From an uncultured Rickettsiales bacterium (GTDB lineage Bacteria > Pseudomonadota > Alphaproteobacteria > UBA8366), in assembly GCA_913046825.1 (NCBI GenBank), contig CAJWTF010000005.1, positions 1-64,000 of the forward strand: a stretch of 64,000 nucleotides of DNA, read 5' to 3'. The notes below the pieces were generated by a model. It was given only the letters and a program-made list of their open reading frames with translations, searched no databases and had not been told where the DNA came from. Both the position numbers and the translations under genes were made by a program. The first letter of the stretch is position 1, and every line of letters begins with the position of its first letter. This document shows positions 3,040-14,476 of the stretch, piece by piece.

Positions 3040-4090
3040 ATGAAAGAAAGCCCTAGTGGTCGGCGCCTCCGGTGTTGTTGGACGGCGGTTGGCGGAATAT
3101 CTGCACAGCCAAGAAGATTGGGAAGTGGTTGGCCTCTCTCGGCGTGAACCCACCGGCGGCAACGACGCGCCATACATTGCCGTCGATCTCTCGAACCGAG
3201 CGAATACGATCGCAAAACTTGGCAACCTCTCCGACGTCACGCATATCTTTTACAAAGCGCGCTTCGACCACGAGGAAGGCCAGCCCGAGCCCATTGAAAC
3301 CAAATTCTCAATGTTCCACGATCTGATCGAAACACTGGAGCCAGTCTCCCGGTAACTTGAACATGTCCATATCGGCAGTGGACACAAGAATTACGGATTG
3401 CATTCGGGACCGGCCCCGACACCGGCCCGCGAGTATGCGACGCAGACCACCCAACCGAGTTTCTACTACCAACAAGAAGATTTTATACGCGCCCGGCAGG
3501 TTGGAAAATAATCGTCCTGGCGAACGGCGCACCCGACCGGACTTTGTGATACAGCCCCCGGTATTAACCGCAGCATGATCAGTCTGATCTGCACCTATGT
3601 GGCGATTTGCAAAGAATTGGAGTTGCCGCTGCGCTTCCCCGGTACGGAGAGAAATTACCACGCTTTTTAATCAATGTACTGAGGCACTGCATCTAGCTAA
3701 AGCCACGACGTGGATGGCAACGGGGCCAAAATGCGCCAACCATGATTTCAATATCACCAACGGCGATAAGTTCCGCTGGTCTGCTTTCTGTCCAAAGTTC
3801 GTGGACTATTTCGACATGGAATTGGGGCCAGTACAGACTATCGACCTCGTCAAGCATATGGGGGTTATGGAGCCGGTCTGGCTGCGCATAGTCGAAAAGC
3901 ACGACTTGGTCCTCCAACCGCTTGATCAGGTAGCACTCTGGCCCTACCGGCGACACCTTTGGACGCCGGACTGGGACATCGTTTCATCGACCATGAAGGC
4001 GCGACAATTCGTTTTTACGAGTTTGTCGACGCAGAAGAAATTTTCTTCAAGGTGTTCGAGCACTTCCGCGCAGAACGAGTGTTTCCTTAG
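3040..4090 (+). pseudogene. remnant of PRISE-type SDR (progesterone 5beta-reductase/iridoid synthase-like)
   Basis: Three-frame reading recovers most of a long SDR: LVVGASGVVGRRLAEYL (nucleotide-binding) at 3053-3103, HVHIGSGHKNYGLH after 3363, FYYQQEDF near 3460, LELPLRFPGT near 3617 and FNITNGDKFRW near 3750, all landmarks of the PRISE subfamily. It is broken by a +1 shift at the start (the ATG at 3040 is out of frame with the body), an in-frame TAA at 3354-3356, further stops near 3510 and 3668, and a frameshift around 3950; the C-terminal VFEHFRAERVFP segment then ends at 4090. The last four bases overlap the opposing gene. The function would have been NAD(P)H-dependent enone reduction; now lost. 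Confidence 0.85.
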
Positions 4091-5004
4091 CGCACCGCAC
4101 CCGCATCCAGATCGAGCATTTTCTCCGCGACTTCTGCGATCATCCGCCACGATGTCGACGGGTCTCGTGTCGCTTCCACATCATCGAAATAAGTATCGAG
4201 CAAGACATGCTCGCAACCCATTTCCTCGAGCGAGGCAAGATCGCGGTGCACTTGGTCGAGCGAGCCCGTGCCCATCACCCGCGTCTCGTCATCAGCTGCC
4301 ACATCGAAAATGCGCAATCGTATTCGCGGGCAGAGTGCGGGCATCTTCGCACCCTCTTCATCTGCTAGCTGTCGCAGCCGCGGCATACCTTCGTCGCGCA
4401 GCCAGTCCTCTTGGAATCGTATTGGATGCCATGCATCGCCTAGTCGGATAGTCCGCCGCAGCGCCGCATCGCTCGCACCCCCCACCCAGATCGGTGGATG
4501 CGGTTTGCGCGCGGGACGCGGCGCCGTATCAACATCGCGATATGAGACGTATTTACCCTCGTAACTCGCAATCTCTTCCGTCCACAATTGTTTGATGGAC
4601 GCGAGATACTCGTTAGTGATCGCGCCGCGTTCCCGGTACGGCACTTTTAGAGACGCAAATTCTTGCTCCGCCCAACCAATACCGACGCCGAGAATCAGCC
4701 GCCCGCCGCTCAACTGATCGATGTTTGCGAACGCGCGTGCTGTCTCTAATGGATTGCGGTACGGCACGATGAGGACCGTCGTGCCAATCTCCAGTTTCTC
4801 GGTCACTCCGGCGAGCCAGGCGAGAGTGCTGATTGGCTCATAGAATGGCGCGGGATAAGCGGCCGCCACGTCCGGTGTTATTACAACATGGTCCGACGTC
4901 ATGATCGAGTGATAGCCAAGCCCCTCCACCACACGTACCCACCGCAGAAAGTTCATCGGGTTGGCTGACGGCCCAAAATTGAGAAGATTGACACCGAATT
5001 TCAT
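4087..5004 (-). CDS. LLM class flavin-dependent oxidoreductase (TIGR03619-like)
   Basis: A 305-residue luciferase-like protein beginning MKFGVNLLNFG, with the TSDHVV, ANIDQLSGGRLILGVGIGW and PHPPIWVGGASDAALRR motifs that define the F420/FMN-dependent LLM oxidoreductase fold. Sequence alone does not decide between F420 and FMN. A GAGG ribosome site sits about eight bases before the ATG. It lies 10 bp downstream of the cupin gene on the same strand, so the two likely form a unit. The stop overlaps by a few bases the end of the convergent decayed SDR. Confidence 0.85.
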   Translation of the reverse strand: MKFGVNLLNFGPSANPMNFLRWVRVVEGLGYHSIMTSDHVVITPDVAAAYPAPFYEPISTLAWLAGVTEKLEIGTTVLIVPYRNPLETARAFANIDQLSGGRLILGVGIGWAEQEFASLKVPYRERGAITNEYLASIKQLWTEEIASYEGKYVSYRDVDTAPRPARKPHPPIWVGGASDAALRRTIRLGDAWHPIRFQEDWLRDEGMPRLRQLADEEGAKMPALCPRIRLRIFDVAADDETRVMGTGSLDQVHRDLASLEEMGCEHVLLDTYFDDVEATRDPSTSWRMIAEVAEKMLDLDAGAVR

Positions 5005-5433: not shown

Positions 5434-6867
5434 TCACCCAGGTTCCGTCACAGGAAGTGACAACGGTGCAATTTCCTGACTGGTGCGGCCAAAGAAATCT
5501 GTGCCCTCGACCGCTGTTTCCATACGCGCCTGCCCGTCGACAATCTTCTCGGCGGCAACCTGCCGATCAAGGGTCATGCATTCGAGGTCGCAAACAGTTT
5601 GTATTCCATCGATATAAACATCCTTCAACGCACGGTCGGCAGCAGAGTGGATTAGGCACATGAGCGGGTCGCGCGACGGCAACATCATAGGATGATTGCA
5701 ATCGATAACCACGATGTCCGCTTTGGCAGCCACCGCGAGGCGTCCAATGTCGTTCCGCATCAAGGCTTTTGCACCTCCCGCCGTCCCCACATTGAATACA
5801 TCACCGGTCTTGGCCGTGTTACCGTCGTGCTCGGCCACCCGCGCCAGAATGGTGGCGAAGCGCATGTCCTCGATGAAATCGTGGGGGATGGTATCGGGGC
5901 CGATGCCAAGCACGACACCCGCGTCGAGATGCCGCTCTAAAACCTCCAACGTCGTGCCTGGGCGCATGAACGGAGTCGGATAATGCGCGACGCCGGTCAC
6001 GGTTCCGCCCAACAGCTCAACATCGAGATTGCTGTGCCAACCGACCCAGGAGCTGTGATCCGGCACAATCACTGACCCAAGGTCACTCCTTCACCCAGCA
6101 GATCGTTCTCCACCATAAACTGAATCAGGGAAATGCCATGCCGATCCACCATAATGTTGAACTCCAGCACCGATTGGTTGGGATGGGTGGTCCAGGGCAG
6201 ATCGCGCGTACTCGCTTCGGCACGACTTTCAATCAACAATACCGGTGTTACCTTGTCGATGGTCGAAGGCGGGACGACCGCTGGGATGCGCCCGCGCCTC
6301 ATCGATTACGTCCATGGCTGTGCGGAAGGCCTGCTCGCCCCGGGGCACGTCCTCGATGAATGTCAGCTAATGGATATTGTTGCGGCTCCAACGCTATGTC
6401 TCGAAATTGGAAGCCGTGTACATGCGCAAACCACTCCGGGCCATAACCTCTATCCAGCCGGGATAGGGTGCTGTGACACCGACCAACTTCGTCACCCAAC
6501 TTAACATCCAATCCGCACAGGAGACCTCCGCACCCATGGGCAATAGCGTCCGGTCAATATGTGTGGAGTAAGCGCAGGACCGCTCATACAAACCAGTCAT
6601 GAAATGTTCCGGGACGCTGTGGTCTTTGCGGAGCCCACGATAGAAGGCTGCCGTTGCCAGGTGAGCGTGAATGTCAACGAGACCGGGGATAAGGCATAAC
6701 CGGGCCCCATCAATCACAGTGTCGGCCGCTCCGGTATAATGCTTCCCAATAAAGGAGTTCGCGTTCCCACCGACGGCCAGATCACCACCTCTTAGATAGG
6801 TGTGGCCTTAGCGCTCGGCATCCCAGGCGACAATCCAATCGACATTCGAGAAATCTGTGATTGCCAT
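5434..6867 (-). pseudogene. decayed amidohydrolase (cytosine/SAH-deaminase-like family)
   Basis: The frame opening at ATG 6867 reads through a TAA near 6810, then IPGLVDIHAHLA (the HxH metal motif) near 6680, then two in-frame TAG codons near 6365-6395. Further segments in shifted frames include VVPPSTIDKVTP near 6270, DHSSWVGWHSNLD near 6060, GIGPDTIPHDFIEDMR near 5890 and the C-terminal AVAAKADIVVIDCNHPMM near 5710, ending in TGA at 5434-5436. Together they cover a full-length metal-dependent amidohydrolase, broken by at least three stops and two frameshifts. It cannot make an intact enzyme. Confidence 0.85.
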
Positions 6868-6950: not shown

Positions 6951-7595
6951 TTATGGCGCTGAATCCGATAAGGTCGAGACATAATCCGGTTTCAGCCGGT
7001 CGCGATGGCGCGGTGAGCTCAACAATTTTGCCGCCTCCGTCAACGGCATCAGGCCCGGCTCCGTGCCGGGCGCGAACTCACTCCAATTCCGGGCATCCTC
7101 TTCAGACCTGAAGAGGTTCATGCGGCTTAAGGAAAAGGGAAGGCTCTCGTACCATTTCTTGATCGGCCGATCGACATAGAAATGAATGCCGTCGGGCGTC
7201 GCCTCCTCGATCACACTGTCGCGCATGGTGATGTGCATGTCCTCACCCGAATGTAGGCAGGGAGCATCGATTTCAACCGTCTTGCCGAGAAACAGTCAGG
7301 AGATTGCGGTGGCTTCCAGCCCGCATTGCGCGAACCATTTTCGCGTACCGTCGACGGTGACCCTATAATGGGTTGGTAGATTGTAGAACGGTGCAAACGA
7401 CGCGATCAGATCGGTGCCGGGAAAGACCCAATTGGGCAGACCTTGGCCCATCAGATCGTGCAGCAACTCCCGACCTTCAGCAGGGGAAATATCGAACTCG
7501 CGCGCCATTTCCGTATAATGCGGCGCCTCTCCATTCTCCACGATAAAGCGGAGAATGAAGTTATACGTCCGATCCAACGTCGCCGCGTCGGCCAT
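6951..7595 (-). pseudogene. alkylmercury-lyase-like protein with one in-frame TGA
   Basis: A single frame of 215 codons is interrupted only by TGA at 7298-7296 (codon 100). Before it comes an N-terminal winged-helix-like part (YTEMAREFDISPAEGRELL) and a KWFAQCGLE motif; after it, LFLGKTVEIDAPC and SRMNLFRSEEDARNW. The pattern resembles MerB organomercurial lyase and its relatives: Cys91 with Glu94 sits where MerB has catalytic Cys and Asp. The second MerB catalytic Cys has no counterpart, so it is probably a MerB-like relative and not a true mercury lyase. The TGA falls about nine residues after Cys91, so a nonsense mutation (Trp or Cys codon) is likelier than selenocysteine. The preceding broken genes support decay. 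Confidence 0.65.
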
Positions 7596-7605
7596 AGCCT
7601 ATTCC

Positions 7606-8445
7606 CTATCCGATCAGCTTCGTGAATGCGTCCAGCTTCTGCATGCAGGTGTCGCGGTCCGCCGTCGGCATCTGCAATAGGACAGTATCGATCCCAGCCG
7701 CTTCGTATTTATCGAGTTCGGCACGATCCTCCGGTCCTCGGAAGATCGTGATCGACAGCTCGCTCGGATCGCGGCCGACATCTTCGGCCATCGCGGCCAA
7801 TCGAGATTTGGCTTCCGACGGATCAAATCCGGGCTTGGCGCGCGGCAACCAACCATCGCAATAATCGACCACGCGCTTCAAGGTGTGATCGGTCTCACCA
7901 CCCAGGATAATCGGCGGGTGCGGTGTTTGTAGCGGCTTCGGATAAGAGAATGCCGGATCAAAATTCACAAACTCGCCATGGAATTCGGCCTGTTCCTGCG
8001 TCCACATTTCCTTCATCGCCAACACATTCTCGCGCATCAGTTTGAAGCGCGTCTTATACTCAACGCCGTGGTTCTCCATCTCGTCGACATTCCAACCACC
8101 GCCGATGCCGAAGACAAACCGGCCACCGGAAAGCTTATCGATACTGGCGACGTTCTTGGCGGTGACGATGGGGTCACGCTGTGGCACCAGGCAGATACCA
8201 GTGCCGACCTTTAATTTCTTGGTCGCAGCCGCCGCAAAGGACAACGCAACGAACGGATCGTAAGTGTGATAATACTCCTTCGGAAGCGTCCCATCGCCAG
8301 CACCCCACGGCGTCTTACGGCTGGCCGGGATATGCGTGTGCTCCGGCTGCAGGAGCGTGCTGAAACCCCTTTGCTCGAGTTCGACGGCAAGTTCGACGAT
8401 ATCGATGGAATAGTCGGTCGCGAAGAAGAAAACACCTAAGTCCAT
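7606..8445 (-). CDS. LLM class flavin-dependent oxidoreductase
   Basis: A 279-residue luciferase-like oxidoreductase. The motifs LQPEHTHIP, VGTGICLVPQRDPI, ASIDKLSGGRFVFGIGGGWN and PHPPIILGGETDHTLKRVV mark the fold and flavin site. It is a close paralogue of the protein at 13346-14185: same length, with shared motifs along the whole chain. A GGGAGC ribosome site precedes the ATG. The alkylmercury-lyase-like remnant lies just downstream (10 bp). The divergent FMN reductase gene at 8567 could provide reduced flavin if this enzyme is FMN-dependent. Confidence 0.87.
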   Translation of the reverse strand: MDLGVFFFATDYSIDIVELAVELEQRGFSTLLQPEHTHIPASRKTPWGAGDGTLPKEYYHTYDPFVALSFAAAATKKLKVGTGICLVPQRDPIVTAKNVASIDKLSGGRFVFGIGGGWNVDEMENHGVEYKTRFKLMRENVLAMKEMWTQEQAEFHGEFVNFDPAFSYPKPLQTPHPPIILGGETDHTLKRVVDYCDGWLPRAKPGFDPSEAKSRLAAMAEDVGRDPSELSITIFRGPEDRAELDKYEAAGIDTVLLQMPTADRDTCMQKLDAFTKLIG

Positions 8446-8566: not shown

Positions 8567-9118
8567 ATGGCCGATACGAAAATCCTGGGTATCTGCGGCA
8601 GTTTGCGGAAAGCCTCGCTCAACATGGCCGCCTTGCGCGCCGCGGGCGCGAACGCGCCGGACGGCATCAGTTTGGATATAGCCAATCTCTCCGGCATTCC
8701 AGTCTATAACGAGGAAATCTATGCCGACGGATTCCCGCCAGCGGTTGATACCTTCCGTGCGCAAATCCGGGCCGCCGACGCGCTCCTCTTCGCCACGCCG
8801 GAGTATAATTACTCAATTCCAGGCCCGTTGAAGAACGCCATCGACTGGGCCTCACGTCCGCCGGAACATCCCTTCACTGGCAAGGCAGTCGGCATGCTTG
8901 GTTGCTCCGCCGGGACCTCCGGCACGATGCGGGCGCAATATCATTTACGCCAGGTGATGGTGTTTCTCGACATGCGGCCACTGAATAAGCCAGAAGTTTT
9001 TATTCCAGCGGCGGGCAAGCTGTTCGACTACAATGGAAACTTGGCCGATGACGCGACGGCGGGACGGGTTGGAGACTTGATGGCAGCACTCGCAGCGTGG
9101 TCGAAACAGATTTCTTAA
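8567..9118 (+). CDS. NAD(P)H-dependent FMN reductase (SsuE/ChrR-like flavodoxin fold)
   Basis: A 183-residue flavodoxin-fold protein with the phosphate-binding loop GICGSLRKAS at residues 8-17 and the classic TPEYNYSIPGPLKNAIDW motif (about 82-99) that binds the isoalloxazine ring. Proteins of this family reduce FMN, quinones or chromate with NAD(P)H. A GGGA ribosome site precedes the ATG. Divergent to a luciferase-like oxidoreductase, it is a plausible source of reduced flavin for the LLM enzymes of this window (inference). A GC-rich hairpin follows the gene. Confidence 0.9.
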   Translation: MADTKILGICGSLRKASLNMAALRAAGANAPDGISLDIANLSGIPVYNEEIYADGFPPAVDTFRAQIRAADALLFATPEYNYSIPGPLKNAIDWASRPPEHPFTGKAVGMLGCSAGTSGTMRAQYHLRQVMVFLDMRPLNKPEVFIPAAGKLFDYNGNLADDATAGRVGDLMAALAAWSKQIS

Positions 9119-9175: not shown

Positions 9176-9874
9176 CTACTCAGCCGCGACAACTTCCTGC
9201 TCGAACAAATTGCCGATGTGGTAACCGTAACGCTTCATCGATGTTTTGAACTCGGGCACGAAACTGTCCGCAACCGATCCGGTTACCAATTCCGAGGCAA
9301 GCAAGGCTTTGCACCACGCTTTCACCAACGGGAAGCCGTCGAGTAGACCGGTATTGAGCCGCTCTTCGGCGATCATAAAACGTTGGAAGAACGGCGCATA
9401 GGCCGCATCCACCAGACACAGCGTATCGCCGTTGAAATACGGACCGTCATTACCGCGTTCGGCCTTGATCGCGTCTTCCAGCTTTTTGAGAGCTTTCTCG
9501 GCATCCGGTCGGCCCGCTTCCATCTCGGCCACAGTCTCGCGGCGATAGGCGGCACTCAGGCCTTTAGAGAAGTCCGGCACGAAATCGGTCCATGCCCGGT
9601 TACGCGCTCGCTTGATCGGATCTTTCGGATGCAAGTGCGGCGCGACCACTTCCTCCAAGAATTCGGCGATGGCGTTCGATTCAAACAGCACGTCATCGTC
9701 CACGTTTAACACCGGCACCTTGCCGTGCGGCGATATTTTCAGGAACCAATCCGGCTTTTCGCGAAGATTAATGTAGGTAACGTCAAAGTCTACTTCCTTG
9801 GTACGCAGCACGATCACGGCGCGCTGGACCCAGGGTCAAGTTACAGAACTAATAAGATGAAACTTCTTGCCCAT
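9176..9874 (-). CDS. glutathione S-transferase, candidate selenoprotein (in-frame TGA at the catalytic Cys site)
   Basis: The conventional frame (from GTG 9817) lacks the first strand of the thioredoxin fold. Extending upstream reaches ATG 9874, giving a 232-residue GST whose codon 13 is TGA (9838-9836). The context reads ISSVT-U-PWVQRAVIVL, matching the CPF/CPWVQR active site of Cys-type GSTs, so TGA replaces exactly the catalytic Cys. The rest is intact: KPDWFLKISPHGKVPVL, the ESNAIAEFLEE glutathione-binding region, and an all-helical C-terminal domain. A strong GGGAGG ribosome site stands seven bases before ATG 9874 and nothing comparable precedes GTG 9817. A hairpin begins nine bases after the TGA. 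If the TGA were a plain nonsense mutation, no other lesion accompanies it, unlike the neighbouring decayed genes. No selA, selB or selC is in the window, so decoding capacity is unproven. Confidence 0.75.
9806..9826 (-). promoter_or_regulatory. candidate bacterial SECIS hairpin in the GST mRNA
   Basis: On the minus strand, CAGCGCG (9826-9820) pairs with CGTGCTG (9812-9806), seven base pairs including one G-U, enclosing a seven-base loop CCGTGAT. The stem starts nine bases after the TGA and the loop begins at about base 17. Bacterial SECIS elements are stem-loops within roughly this distance downstream of the UGA. The loop lacks a G in its first two positions unless the closing G-C pair opens, so the match is reasonable but not decisive. 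Confidence 0.45.
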
Positions 9875-9881
9875 AAGGCGT

Positions 9882-9887
9882 CCTCCC
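9882..9887 (-). promoter_or_regulatory. ribosome binding site that fixes the GST start
   Basis: GGGAGG on the minus strand lies seven bases upstream of ATG 9874. It decides that translation starts before the TGA at 9838-9836 and not at the GTG at 9817. Confidence 0.75.
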
Positions 9888-9976: not shown

Positions 9977-10978
9977 ATGAAATTTGGACTCTATATTTCA
10001 ACCCAATGGCCGGAGGGCGCAAACATCTCGTCCGAGATGGACAACATGCTAGAACAGGTCCGGGTCGCCCGCGACAACGGCTTTTCGTCTGTCTGGATGG
10101 GCCAACACTATTTGGTCGCGCCCATGCAGATGATGCAGGTCATGCCACTGCTCTCGCGGCTGGCGGCTGAGGGTGAAGGCATGACATTCGGCACCGCCGT
10201 CGTCTTGCTCTCCATGCTCAATCCGGCGGTCGTGGCGGAAGAAGCCGCGACGCTCGATTGGATCACCGAAGGGAATTTTGTTCTTGGCGTCGGCATGGGT
10301 TATCGGAAGGAAGAGTTCGAGACCCTTGGCGTGCCGTTCAATCAGCGGGTCGGGCGGCTCGAGGAAGGCATCGACGTTATCCGGCGACTTTGGACCGAAG
10401 ATCGCGTCAATCACGACGGAAAGTATTTCAAGATCGACAATCTTGGTATCAGTCTGAAGCCGAAGCGCTCCGGCGGCCCGCCGATTTGGCTTGGCGGTCA
10501 GGTTCCAGCGGCGGTCGCGCGGGCCGCCCAGCTCGGCGACGCCTGGATGGCAGCCCCCACGGACAGTTTCGGTCGCGTCGCCAAATGCGTCGAGATGTTC
10601 CGCACGGCACGCGCCGAGGCCGGATTGCCGATGCCGGACAGCATGCCTATCACCCGCGAGTGCTGTATCCGAGATACCCAAGCACAAGCACTTGAGGTTT
10701 GCCGCCCCGCCTTGCTCGACAAGTACAAAGCCTATGCGTCCTGGGGGGCAGCAGGCAGCGGAGAGAAAAGCCGGAGCTTCGCCGACTCCTTCGACGATTT
10801 TATGACGGACCGCTTCATCGTCGGCGACGAGGCGGAGGCCGCGGACGAGTTTCAGCGCTATCGCGACGAGCTCGGAATCGATACTTTTATTCTGCGGATG
10901 AGCTGGATCGGCCTCGAGCAGGCGGAGATGCTGGAAACCATCAAGCGGGTCGGACGGGTCGCCGCCAGGGTGTCATAA
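9977..10978 (+). CDS. LLM class flavin-dependent oxidoreductase
   Basis: A 333-residue luciferase-like protein starting MKFGLYIST after an AAGGA ribosome site. Motifs include SSVWMGQHYLV, ATLDWITEGNFVLGVGMGY and GGPPIWLGGQVPAAVARAA, with a family-typical C-terminal strand FILRMSWIGLEQ. It is longer than the 279-residue pair and belongs to another LLM branch. It is divergent from the GST gene across about 100 bp that must hold both promoters. The substrate is unknown. Confidence 0.87.
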   Translation: MKFGLYISTQWPEGANISSEMDNMLEQVRVARDNGFSSVWMGQHYLVAPMQMMQVMPLLSRLAAEGEGMTFGTAVVLLSMLNPAVVAEEAATLDWITEGNFVLGVGMGYRKEEFETLGVPFNQRVGRLEEGIDVIRRLWTEDRVNHDGKYFKIDNLGISLKPKRSGGPPIWLGGQVPAAVARAAQLGDAWMAAPTDSFGRVAKCVEMFRTARAEAGLPMPDSMPITRECCIRDTQAQALEVCRPALLDKYKAYASWGAAGSGEKSRSFADSFDDFMTDRFIVGDEAEAADEFQRYRDELGIDTFILRMSWIGLEQAEMLETIKRVGRVAARVS

Positions 10979-11009: not shown

Positions 11010-11850
11010 ATGTTCGAAGCGGCGGAGCGCGGACAAAAAACATCGAAGCAAGCGTTCCACTAATTGGCGCCGGACCTGCGCCTGCGCATGGTCCGATTGC
11101 AGCAATCTCTGCGCGCCGCCGGGCACGGACGAATACGGCAGCACCCAAGGTTCTAACGCAACTGGATATGTCGCCAACGATATCCCGCGAACACCATAGT
11201 ATCGAATTGTAGGCGCTGCGGACACGGCTTCACAGCCTATATCGCCACCCCCAATCGGAGGCGCTCTCGACCGTTCTGGTTTTCGAAGGATGGGATGGCG
11301 CAGGAAAGGGTGGTGCCATCCGGCGCATGACGACAGCCCTCGACGCACGCGATTACCGCGTCATTCCGATCTCAGCACCGACAGACGAGGAACGAGCGCA
11401 CCATTTTCTCTGTCGGTTCTGGCATCATCTTGCGCGGGTCGGACGTTTCACAATATTCAACCGCAGTTGGTACGGCCGAGTTTTGGTCGAATATGTGGAG
11501 AATTTTATATCGAACGACCTTTACGAACGCTCCTTTGACGAGATCAACGGGTTCGAGGAATAGCTCACGGAGTCCTGTTGTTGAAATTCTGGCTGCATAT
11601 CGACAAAGATGAACAGGCGGCACAGTTTGAGAAACGTGGAAACATTCCATTTAAAAGCTGGAAGCTGACGGACGAAGATTGGCGCAACCGCGAGAAGTGG
11701 GACGATTACGAATGCGCGGTCGACGAAATGGTGCTGAGGACAGGCACCTATGATTGCCTGTGGACCTTGGTCGAGGCTAAAAGCAAACGCCTCGCCCGAT
11801 TAAAAGTGATACGCACACTTTGCGAGCGGCTGGAAGAACGGCTGGGGTAA
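11010..11850 (+). pseudogene. remnant of polyphosphate:AMP phosphotransferase / PPK2 kinase
   Basis: ATG 11010, behind a G-rich ribosome site, begins MFEAAERGQKTSKQAFH, similar to the start of two-domain polyphosphate:AMP phosphotransferases. A TAA follows near 11061, and most of the first PPK2 domain is missing. From about 11234 another frame gives the second domain: VFEGWDGAGKGGAIRR (Walker A), FNRSWYGRVLVE, an in-frame TAG at about 11562, then LKFWLHIDKDEQ and DEDWRNREKWDDYE to TAA 11850. The total is roughly half the expected length, so an internal deletion plus nonsense mutations removed function. The intact enzyme would phosphorylate AMP from polyphosphate. Confidence 0.85.
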
Positions 11851-13345: not shown

Positions 13346-14185
13346 TCAGCCGAGCAGCGTCGCGAAAGTATCCAAGCTTTGTAAAATTTCATCTCGCTTT
13401 AATCCGGGGAACTGCAGTAGACCGCGCTCGATTCCCGCGGCTTCATAACGCGCGATCTCGTCTTTCTCATGGGGCAATCGAAACACCGTAACGGAGAGTG
13501 TAGCCGGGTCGCGCCCGGCTTCTCCAGCAATACGATGCAAGCGCGCCATGTCTTTCTCTGGATCAAACCCATGCGAGGGACGCGGGAACCAACCATCACA
13601 ATACTCGACGACACGGCGCAACGTATGATCCGTCTCTCCGCCCAGCAGCAATGGCGGGTGCGGCTTCTGCATCGGTTTTGGGTAGCACCAGACGGGACTA
13701 AAATCGACATACTCGCCGTGGTATTCGGAGTCCTCTTCGGTCCACAGCGCCTTCATCGCCAGCACGTGTTCCCGCAACTGCGCAAAGCGGGTCTCATAGA
13801 CGACGCCGTGATTGTTCATCTCGCCAACATTCCAACCGCCACCCATACCCAAGATGAAACGACCTTCGGACAGCACATCCAGCGTGGCAATGGTTTTTGC
13901 GAGCACAATCGGATCATGCTGTGGAACAAGGCAAATTCCGGTGCCGACCGTCAGCCGTTTGGTCACCGCTGCCGCCGCCATGCAGGCAGTGAACGGGTCC
14001 ATCATCTCCGCGTAGCTTTTCGGCATCCGCTCGGTGCCGCCCCGGAACGTCTTCTCGGTATTCACCGGAATGTGCGTATGTTCGGGAATGAAAAGCGATT
14101 CAAAGCCACGCGCTTCCAATTCGGAGGCCAGTTCCTGGACACGCATTCCTTTATCGGATGCGGGAAATATCACGCCAATTTTCAT
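13346..14185 (-). CDS. LLM class flavin-dependent oxidoreductase (paralogue of 7606-8445)
   Basis: A 279-residue luciferase-like protein sharing its length and most motifs with the one at 7606: FIPEHTHIPVN, VGTGICLVPQHDPI, GRFILGMGGGWNVGEM and PHPPLLLGGETDHTLRRVV. A GGAGAG ribosome site precedes the ATG. Upstream on the same strand, with a 42 bp gap, lies the MoaD-like gene and before it the molybdoenzyme gene, so a common transcript is plausible. Confidence 0.87.
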   Translation of the reverse strand: MKIGVIFPASDKGMRVQELASELEARGFESLFIPEHTHIPVNTEKTFRGGTERMPKSYAEMMDPFTACMAAAAVTKRLTVGTGICLVPQHDPIVLAKTIATLDVLSEGRFILGMGGGWNVGEMNNHGVVYETRFAQLREHVLAMKALWTEEDSEYHGEYVDFSPVWCYPKPMQKPHPPLLLGGETDHTLRRVVEYCDGWFPRPSHGFDPEKDMARLHRIAGEAGRDPATLSVTVFRLPHEKDEIARYEAAGIERGLLQFPGLKRDEILQSLDTFATLLG

Positions 14186-14227: not shown

Positions 14228-14476
14228 CTAGCCGCCCTCGATGGCTGGAATAAACGCGACCTCGCTATCGGGGCCGACCGCTTCCAACAATACGTCCTGA
14301 TAAATATTCCCATCAATTGCGACGGCCATATCATGGCGCAGGACCGCGCCGACACCGGGAAACCGTTCGTCGAGTTCCCGGATGACGGCTCGGATATTGT
14401 CGGATAGGACCTTTATCTCCGTCTCACCACCGGTGAATTGACGGGCAATTTCCCGGTTCAGGATAACGTTCGCCAT
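14228..14476 (-). CDS. MoaD/ThiS-family ubiquitin-like sulfur carrier
   Basis: An 82-residue protein with a beta-grasp pattern and a C-terminal Gly-Gly (VAFIPAIEGG), the site that is adenylated and thiocarboxylated in MoaD and ThiS. The start is seven bases after the stop of the molybdoenzyme gene, with GAGGGA as ribosome site. Its position suggests a sulfur donor for molybdopterin synthesis or for the adjacent enzyme, but no MoaE or adenylating enzyme is nearby. Confidence 0.78.
   Translation of the reverse strand: MANVILNREIARQFTGGETEIKVLSDNIRAVIRELDERFPGVGAVLRHDMAVAIDGNIYQDVLLEAVGPDSEVAFIPAIEGG

Follow-up and report, generated by a model that had tools for sequence, protein, structure and literature searches.

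The minus strand of the first 64,000 nucleotides of contig CAJWTF010000005.1 (assembly GCA_913046825.1), a stretch of DNA from an uncultured Rickettsiales bacterium that is referred to here as the window, carries at 9176..9874 a gene of 232 codons plus a stop that is predicted to encode a selenocysteine (Sec)-containing glutathione S-transferase (GST). The product has both GST_N and GST_C domains, matching the GST_N_2 profile (PF13409) at 66.5 bits, against a cut-off of 25, and the GST_C_2 profile at 38.8 bits. Within the frame 9874-9176 there is a single internal stop, a TGA at codon 13 (9836..9838, minus strand), which stands in the column of the catalytic Cys (SVT-U-PWVQR). When this TGA is read as Sec (U), the protein runs MGKKFHLISSVT-U-PWVQR..., and the frame is open from there to the end of the gene. 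Seven bases 5' of the ATG at 9874-9872 lies a GGGAGG ribosome-binding site (9882..9887, minus strand), read from the sequence. In the mechanical list of open reading frames (ORFs), the gene begins at GTG 9817. The database matches listed number 120, and the top 84 of them (P0002-P0085) have lengths of 198-214 aa, as against 232 codons here, and the four examined among those 84 (P0002, P0003, P0009 and P0082) start at that same GTG, with everything up to the Sec missing. A previous reading of the window (the sequence-only reading) had claimed that the TGA exactly replaces the catalytic Cys codon, that the frame is intact on both sides over 232 codons, that GGGAGG precedes the upstream ATG, and that automated calling would start at GTG 9817 and lose the active site, all of which the observations above bear out.

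Relatives of the gene were obtained from a scan of genome contigs, with the best 80 of 83 loci being kept. Codon 13 is TGA in 54 of these loci, TGC or TGT (Cys) in 25, and undetermined in one, L065, the alignment of which begins at residue 15. The TGA loci come from metagenome-assembled genomes (MAGs) of Rhodospirillaceae, other Alphaproteobacteria and Gammaproteobacteria, and together with the window they make up the 55 TGA rows considered below. In the alignment of 80 rows (the window and 79 loci), which comprises 17,769 codons, no stop occurs other than the 55 TGAs at codon 13. Upstream of the TGA, residues 5-7, 9, 10 and 12 are common to at least 51 of the 55 TGA rows and residue 8 to 48 of them, and up to five synonymous codons per residue are used at residues 5-10 and 12; conserved residues combined with synonymous variation 5' of the TGA is the pattern predicted by translation through it. 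In a selenoprotein screen, 397 read-through segments of the window were set against the 80 loci and the 40 most frequent TGA matches were listed; of these, the GST TGA alone has counterparts in more than two loci (54 with TGA and 25 with Cys). Another TGA, in a plus-strand segment starting at 14304, has a TGA counterpart in one locus and a Cys counterpart in one. As candidates for further selenoproteins in the window, the remaining matches of this screen were rejected, being taken as chance or antisense.

These data bear directly on the possibility that the TGA is a true stop and that the functional protein starts at GTG 9817, without the active-site strand and the catalytic residue, as ORF finders and the database entries would have it. 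That explanation is very improbable, given that codons 5-10 and 12 are protein-conserved with synonymous variation across 55 rows, that Cys and an open frame occur at this place in 25 loci, and that GGGAGG precedes the ATG and no comparable site is seen before GTG 9817. Moreover, the short form would be without beta-strand 5-9 and the active site. Still harder to credit is that the TGA arose through an error of sequencing or assembly, or through nonsense mutation of a gene in decay. Elsewhere in the window, a MerB-like ORF and the fragmented genes for an amidohydrolase and a PPK2 do look broken, but the identical TGA occurs in 54 other loci and the rest of the GST frame is unbroken.

The machinery for Sec insertion was sought in the genomes of relatives, comprising 53 with the TGA form (54 loci, L008 being left out) and 25 with the Cys form. 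The nearest relative (locus L001 in genome G026, a Rhodospirillaceae MAG) is 86% identical and collinear with the window over much of 9-21 kb, and its genome contains selA, selB, selD and a tRNA-Sec scoring 78.7 bits. Overall, selA is over the cut-off in 49 of the 53 TGA-form genomes (22 of 24 in a first batch and 27 of 29 in a second), compared with 16 of the 25 Cys-form genomes and 4 of the 13 with nearer Cys forms; in the genome of L065, selA was searched for and nothing over the cut-off was found. In counts that take in related genomes, the association of selA with TGA at codon 13 gives a Fisher p of 1.1e-5 against the near Cys forms and 0.003 against all of them. Within the first batch, selB is present in 23 of the 24 TGA genomes and a tRNA-Sec above 60 bits in 21, the figures for the 25 Cys genomes being 14 and 15, respectively. 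Weaker tRNA-Sec matches, at 47-54 bits, probably represent long-arm tRNAs of other kinds, as the family cut-off is passed in 5 of 14 control genomes too. Both codon 13 and the sel genes speak against the last alternative, in which TGA would stand for Trp or Gly throughout the organism (codes 4 or 25) and which is about as remote as sequence error: P0093, a database protein that is a 64% relative of the GST, has W at residue 13, possibly through a gene caller that used code 4 and rendered TGA as Trp, but 4 of 16 checked window genes end in TGA, no other listed TGA match recurs in the manner described above, the 25 non-TGA rows all have Cys and never Trp or Gly, and relatives have tRNA-Sec and selA/selB.

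Downstream of the TGA, synonymous sites were scored in 52 TGA rows (the 55 thinned at 95% nucleotide identity) over the 62 four-fold codon columns with sufficient conservation for scoring. Codons 18, 19 and 20 have the three lowest third-base entropies of the 62; with columns treated as exchangeable, the three lowest would all fall by chance among the seven columns scored in codons 14-26 with a probability of 0.0009. Codon 24 ranks fifth lowest and is CGT in 41 of 52 rows, compared with 75 of 585 Arg codons elsewhere in the gene. The footprint GCGCGCCGTGAT (9813..9824, minus strand), presumed to be the core of a selenocysteine insertion sequence (SECIS), is found in 51 of the 55 TGA rows and none of the 25 Cys rows, a contrast that is partly an amino-acid difference, because the same residues are encoded in only 6 of the Cys rows (Arg-Ala-Val at codons 18-20, which all 55 TGA rows encode). 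With those three residues in common, 51 of the 55 TGA rows use CGCGCCGTG, and none of the 6 Cys rows does. There is also a candidate family-wide 6-bp stem (9801..9824, minus strand), in which 9824-9819 pairs with 9806-9801 around a 12-base loop (bases 15-20 with 33-38, counting the T of the TGA as 1). All six of its pairs are present in 51 of the 55 TGA rows and in 3 of the 25 Cys rows, and GT occurs in its loop in all 55 TGA rows and 10 of the Cys rows. The window has five of the six pairs, one being broken, and can form instead a 7-bp hairpin, CAGCGCG/CGUGCUG (9806..9826, minus strand), as an alternative conformer. An RNA element within about 35 bases after the UGA would, on the evidence of synonymous-site conservation, aid decoding.

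The 7-bp hairpin was the element picked out by the sequence-only reading, and it is indeed present, starting nine bases 3' of the TGA, with one G-U pair and the loop CCGUGAU, as part of the minimum-energy fold. As the SECIS of the family, it is not supported, since only 7 of the 55 TGA rows can form it, as can 2 of the 25 Cys rows. Its energy is -18.0 kcal/mol (z -1.62), and 16 of 200 shuffles are equally stable, so that the energy alone is unremarkable. In a 2026 review (PMC13188914), the consensus for the bacterial SECIS (bSECIS) consists of a loop of 3-9 nt, a stem of 4-16 bp, a G in the first two loop bases, a distance of 16-37 nt from the UGA and a minimum free energy of -7.5 or lower. 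Against this model, the window hairpin has a loop of 7, a stem of 7, a spacing of 16 and the energy just given; in the family-wide stem, the second loop base is G and the spacing is 17. A scan of the 64-kb window with Rfam yielded no match.

The reading that we favour, with a probability of about 0.94, is that the gene encodes a GST of omega/DHAR/tau-like fold in which Sec replaces the catalytic Cys, with the UGA at codon 13 decoded by SelB and an RNA element. Confidence in it derives from the alternation of TGA and Cys, the codon footprint and the sel genes. The sequence-only reading had likewise proposed a redox GST selenoprotein, and had pointed to homologues with TGA or Cys at codon 13 and to the sel genes as places to look; the alternation is there (54 TGA vs 25 Cys among 80 loci), and the search for machinery, run on relatives, recovered selA, selB, selD and tRNA-Sec together in the nearest relative's genome, both of which support the proposal. 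Mechanistically, the Sec would take the place of the catalytic Cys at the N-terminus of helix 1, its UGA codon being decoded by SelB with Sec-tRNA(Sec) and the help of the RNA element in the next ~35 bases. Since the U-P-W-V motif lacks a resolving Cys, the selenolate would be expected to attack a peroxide, a mixed disulphide of glutathione (GSH) or an electrophilic GSH conjugate, forming a Se-SG intermediate from which a second GSH would release the selenolate. From such chemistry, the enzyme is predicted to be a GSH-dependent thiol transferase or reductase.

A number of observations weigh against this reading, beginning with the amino-acid share in the motif contrast. Half of the Cys rows with the same residues (3 of 6) also have the full 6-bp stem, and so, in the same-residue comparison, the sequence (51/55 vs 0/6) is distinctive and the stem as such (51/55 vs 3/6) is not. 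The loop of the window hairpin starts with CC, without the G in its first two positions that the bSECIS model requires, and the 12-nt loop of the family-wide stem exceeds the model's 3-9. Covariation in support of pairing was sought with RNAalifold, and none was found (term 0.11-0.13). Consensus energies at 48 bases are -9.75 for the TGA rows, -9.19 for the near Cys rows and -2.19 for all Cys rows, and mean single-sequence folds are -13.7, -18.3 and -16.2, respectively; by consensus folding, the TGA rows are not separable from the Cys rows. As for the machinery, selA was not found in 4 of the 53 TGA-form genomes, of which G033 and G064 have selB, tRNA-Sec and selD, G069 has tRNA-Sec and selD, and in G043 only selD was found, with a TGA in its own frame; additionally, no tRNA-Sec above 60 bits was found in G029 and G031, where selA and selB are present. 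The genomes with missing sel genes are probably incomplete assemblies. The Fisher counts include related genomes, and the test of selA against TGA on independent pairs from the tree comprised three pairs, with a median p of 1 and significance unreachable. No tRNA gene was found in a scan of the 64-kb window, and a conserved operon partner, sought around the GST gene, did not emerge, the two commonest neighbour families each occurring at 9 of 80 rows. Beside these tallies, the selD matches of G033 (locus L015) and G043 (locus L049) each have one in-frame TGA, and SelD is probably itself a selenoprotein in these two genomes.

The history of the Sec/Cys position was examined on a tree of 80 proteins, with residue 13 masked and a midpoint root used for polarity. 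Four Sec/Cys changes are needed, three of which are forced by well-supported branches alone. Twelve distant Cys proteins and L040 lie outside, and under the midpoint root the best tree implies that Sec arose once, with three returns to Cys (in L030, in a clade of nine rows, and in L029 with L067). This reads as a single gain of Sec followed by two or three reversions to Cys, as judged from the tree. In the nine-row Cys clade, selA was not found in eight of the nine genomes. A coupling of machinery loss with reversion to Cys is plausible, and is not separable statistically from shared descent, as there are only three independent pairs.

A Sec-containing GST was first predicted in 2005, when Zhang, Fomenko and Gladyshev reported four sequences of COG0625 (PMC1088965); in later sources, the family is listed with 12 sequences (PMC2398784), appears in the tables of PMC9312934 and PMC13188914, and is placed by the latter, the 2026 review, among selenoproteins of largely uncharacterized function, and GST goes unmentioned in the available portion of PMC12013277. 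As described there, the published family, found in marine metagenomes, shares with the gene studied here its assignment to COG0625/PF13409, a UGA within the frame and homologues that have Cys. No active-site motif is given in the tables. The published Sec GSTs are likely to be orthologous to the window GST. In the window GST, there is a PF13409 domain, and its TGA is shared by 54 of the 80 loci and aligned with Cys in 25. With the Sec GST in print from 2005 to 2026 in these sources, the window gene is a further member of a published kind, to which the present work adds 54 genomic TGA loci, the footprint relative to Cys forms, a tree and a tally of sel genes. Among solved structures, the omega-class GST, DHAR and tau GST appear to have the same fold and catalytic residue position as the window GST, at 22-30% identity in the structure listings, where the tau GSTs rank top by Z; the window GST differs in being bacterial and in having Sec rather than Cys. 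Omega GST and DHAR use Cys at this catalytic position, and tau GSTs use Ser.

Around the GST gene are four luciferase-like monooxygenase genes (4087-5004, 7606-8445, 9977-10978 and 13346-14185) and a flavin mononucleotide (FMN) reductase gene (8567-9118); the GST/FMN reductase pair recurs in L009 and the GST/monooxygenase pair in L005. The amidohydrolase (5434-6717, minus strand) and the PPK2 (11327-11850, plus strand) appear to be split into pieces, by frame errors or as pseudogenes. The MerB-like ORF (6951-7595, minus strand), 1.6 kb away, lies ten bases after a luciferase-like monooxygenase gene; its frame contains a TGA at codon 100 (7298-7296), and codon 156 specifies Leu. Its second piece matches PF03243 with E 7e-4 and 20 bits, below the Pfam cut-off of 27, the match to MerB2 5c17 has E 7.5e-6, and the listed database relatives carry PF03243. 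The 397-segment screen missed this ORF, and its TGA is unmatched by TGA or Cys in relatives. The columns of codons 91 and 156 correspond to the first and second catalytic Cys of MerB. In two relatives that are 62-64% identical, L088 (from the genome of L009) and L089 (from that of L021), codon 91 is TGC and codon 156 is TGA; the distant L091 (28%) has TGC in both places. Just downstream of codon 156, an 8-bp stem forms in L088, L089 and the window, and its loop, GGUC, is 19 bases from that codon (a SECIS-like hairpin at 7116-7097, minus strand, in the window), in agreement with the published loop, stem, G and spacing rules of the bSECIS model; two pairs differ between the window and the other two, with both partners changed in each.

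Among 120 listed of 182 database relatives of the MerB-like ORF, 101 are 153-157 aa long, and the five 155-aa proteins examined all stop just before codon 156. Ten of those listed, all from JGI, are at least 217 aa, and the seven examined (P0126, P0127, P0132, P0149, P0150, P0157 and P0175) have W at both catalytic columns, possibly because TGA was rendered as Trp, in which case they would be double-Sec lyases. A MerB-like organometallic lyase selenoprotein, SaoL, appears in review tables. The SaoL profile NF040728 (cut-off 140 bits) was not reached by the window read-through, at 36.5, or by the six proteins scanned, at 34.7-38.2. The MerB-like gene is rare, with clear matches in 2 of 50 genomes and a third at E 7e-4, and 385 genomes of one class gave only G035 again and four more distant matches. 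The ORF in the window looks like a decayed copy of a selenoprotein gene from a non-SaoL MerB-like family. That the Sec-GST lies in a selenium-linked detoxification neighbourhood with this decayed lyase, from a family that would have Sec at the second catalytic Cys position, followed by a SECIS in line with the published model, and in some members at both positions, is a tentative suggestion that we regard as somewhat doubtful.

For the Sec GST family, the present analysis provides independent evidence in the form of a codon-level footprint, sel genes and a tree, and makes reversion from Sec to Cys visible within one enzyme family. Database entries that are without the N-terminus up to the Sec look like GSTs with no active site; they are probably active selenoenzymes.
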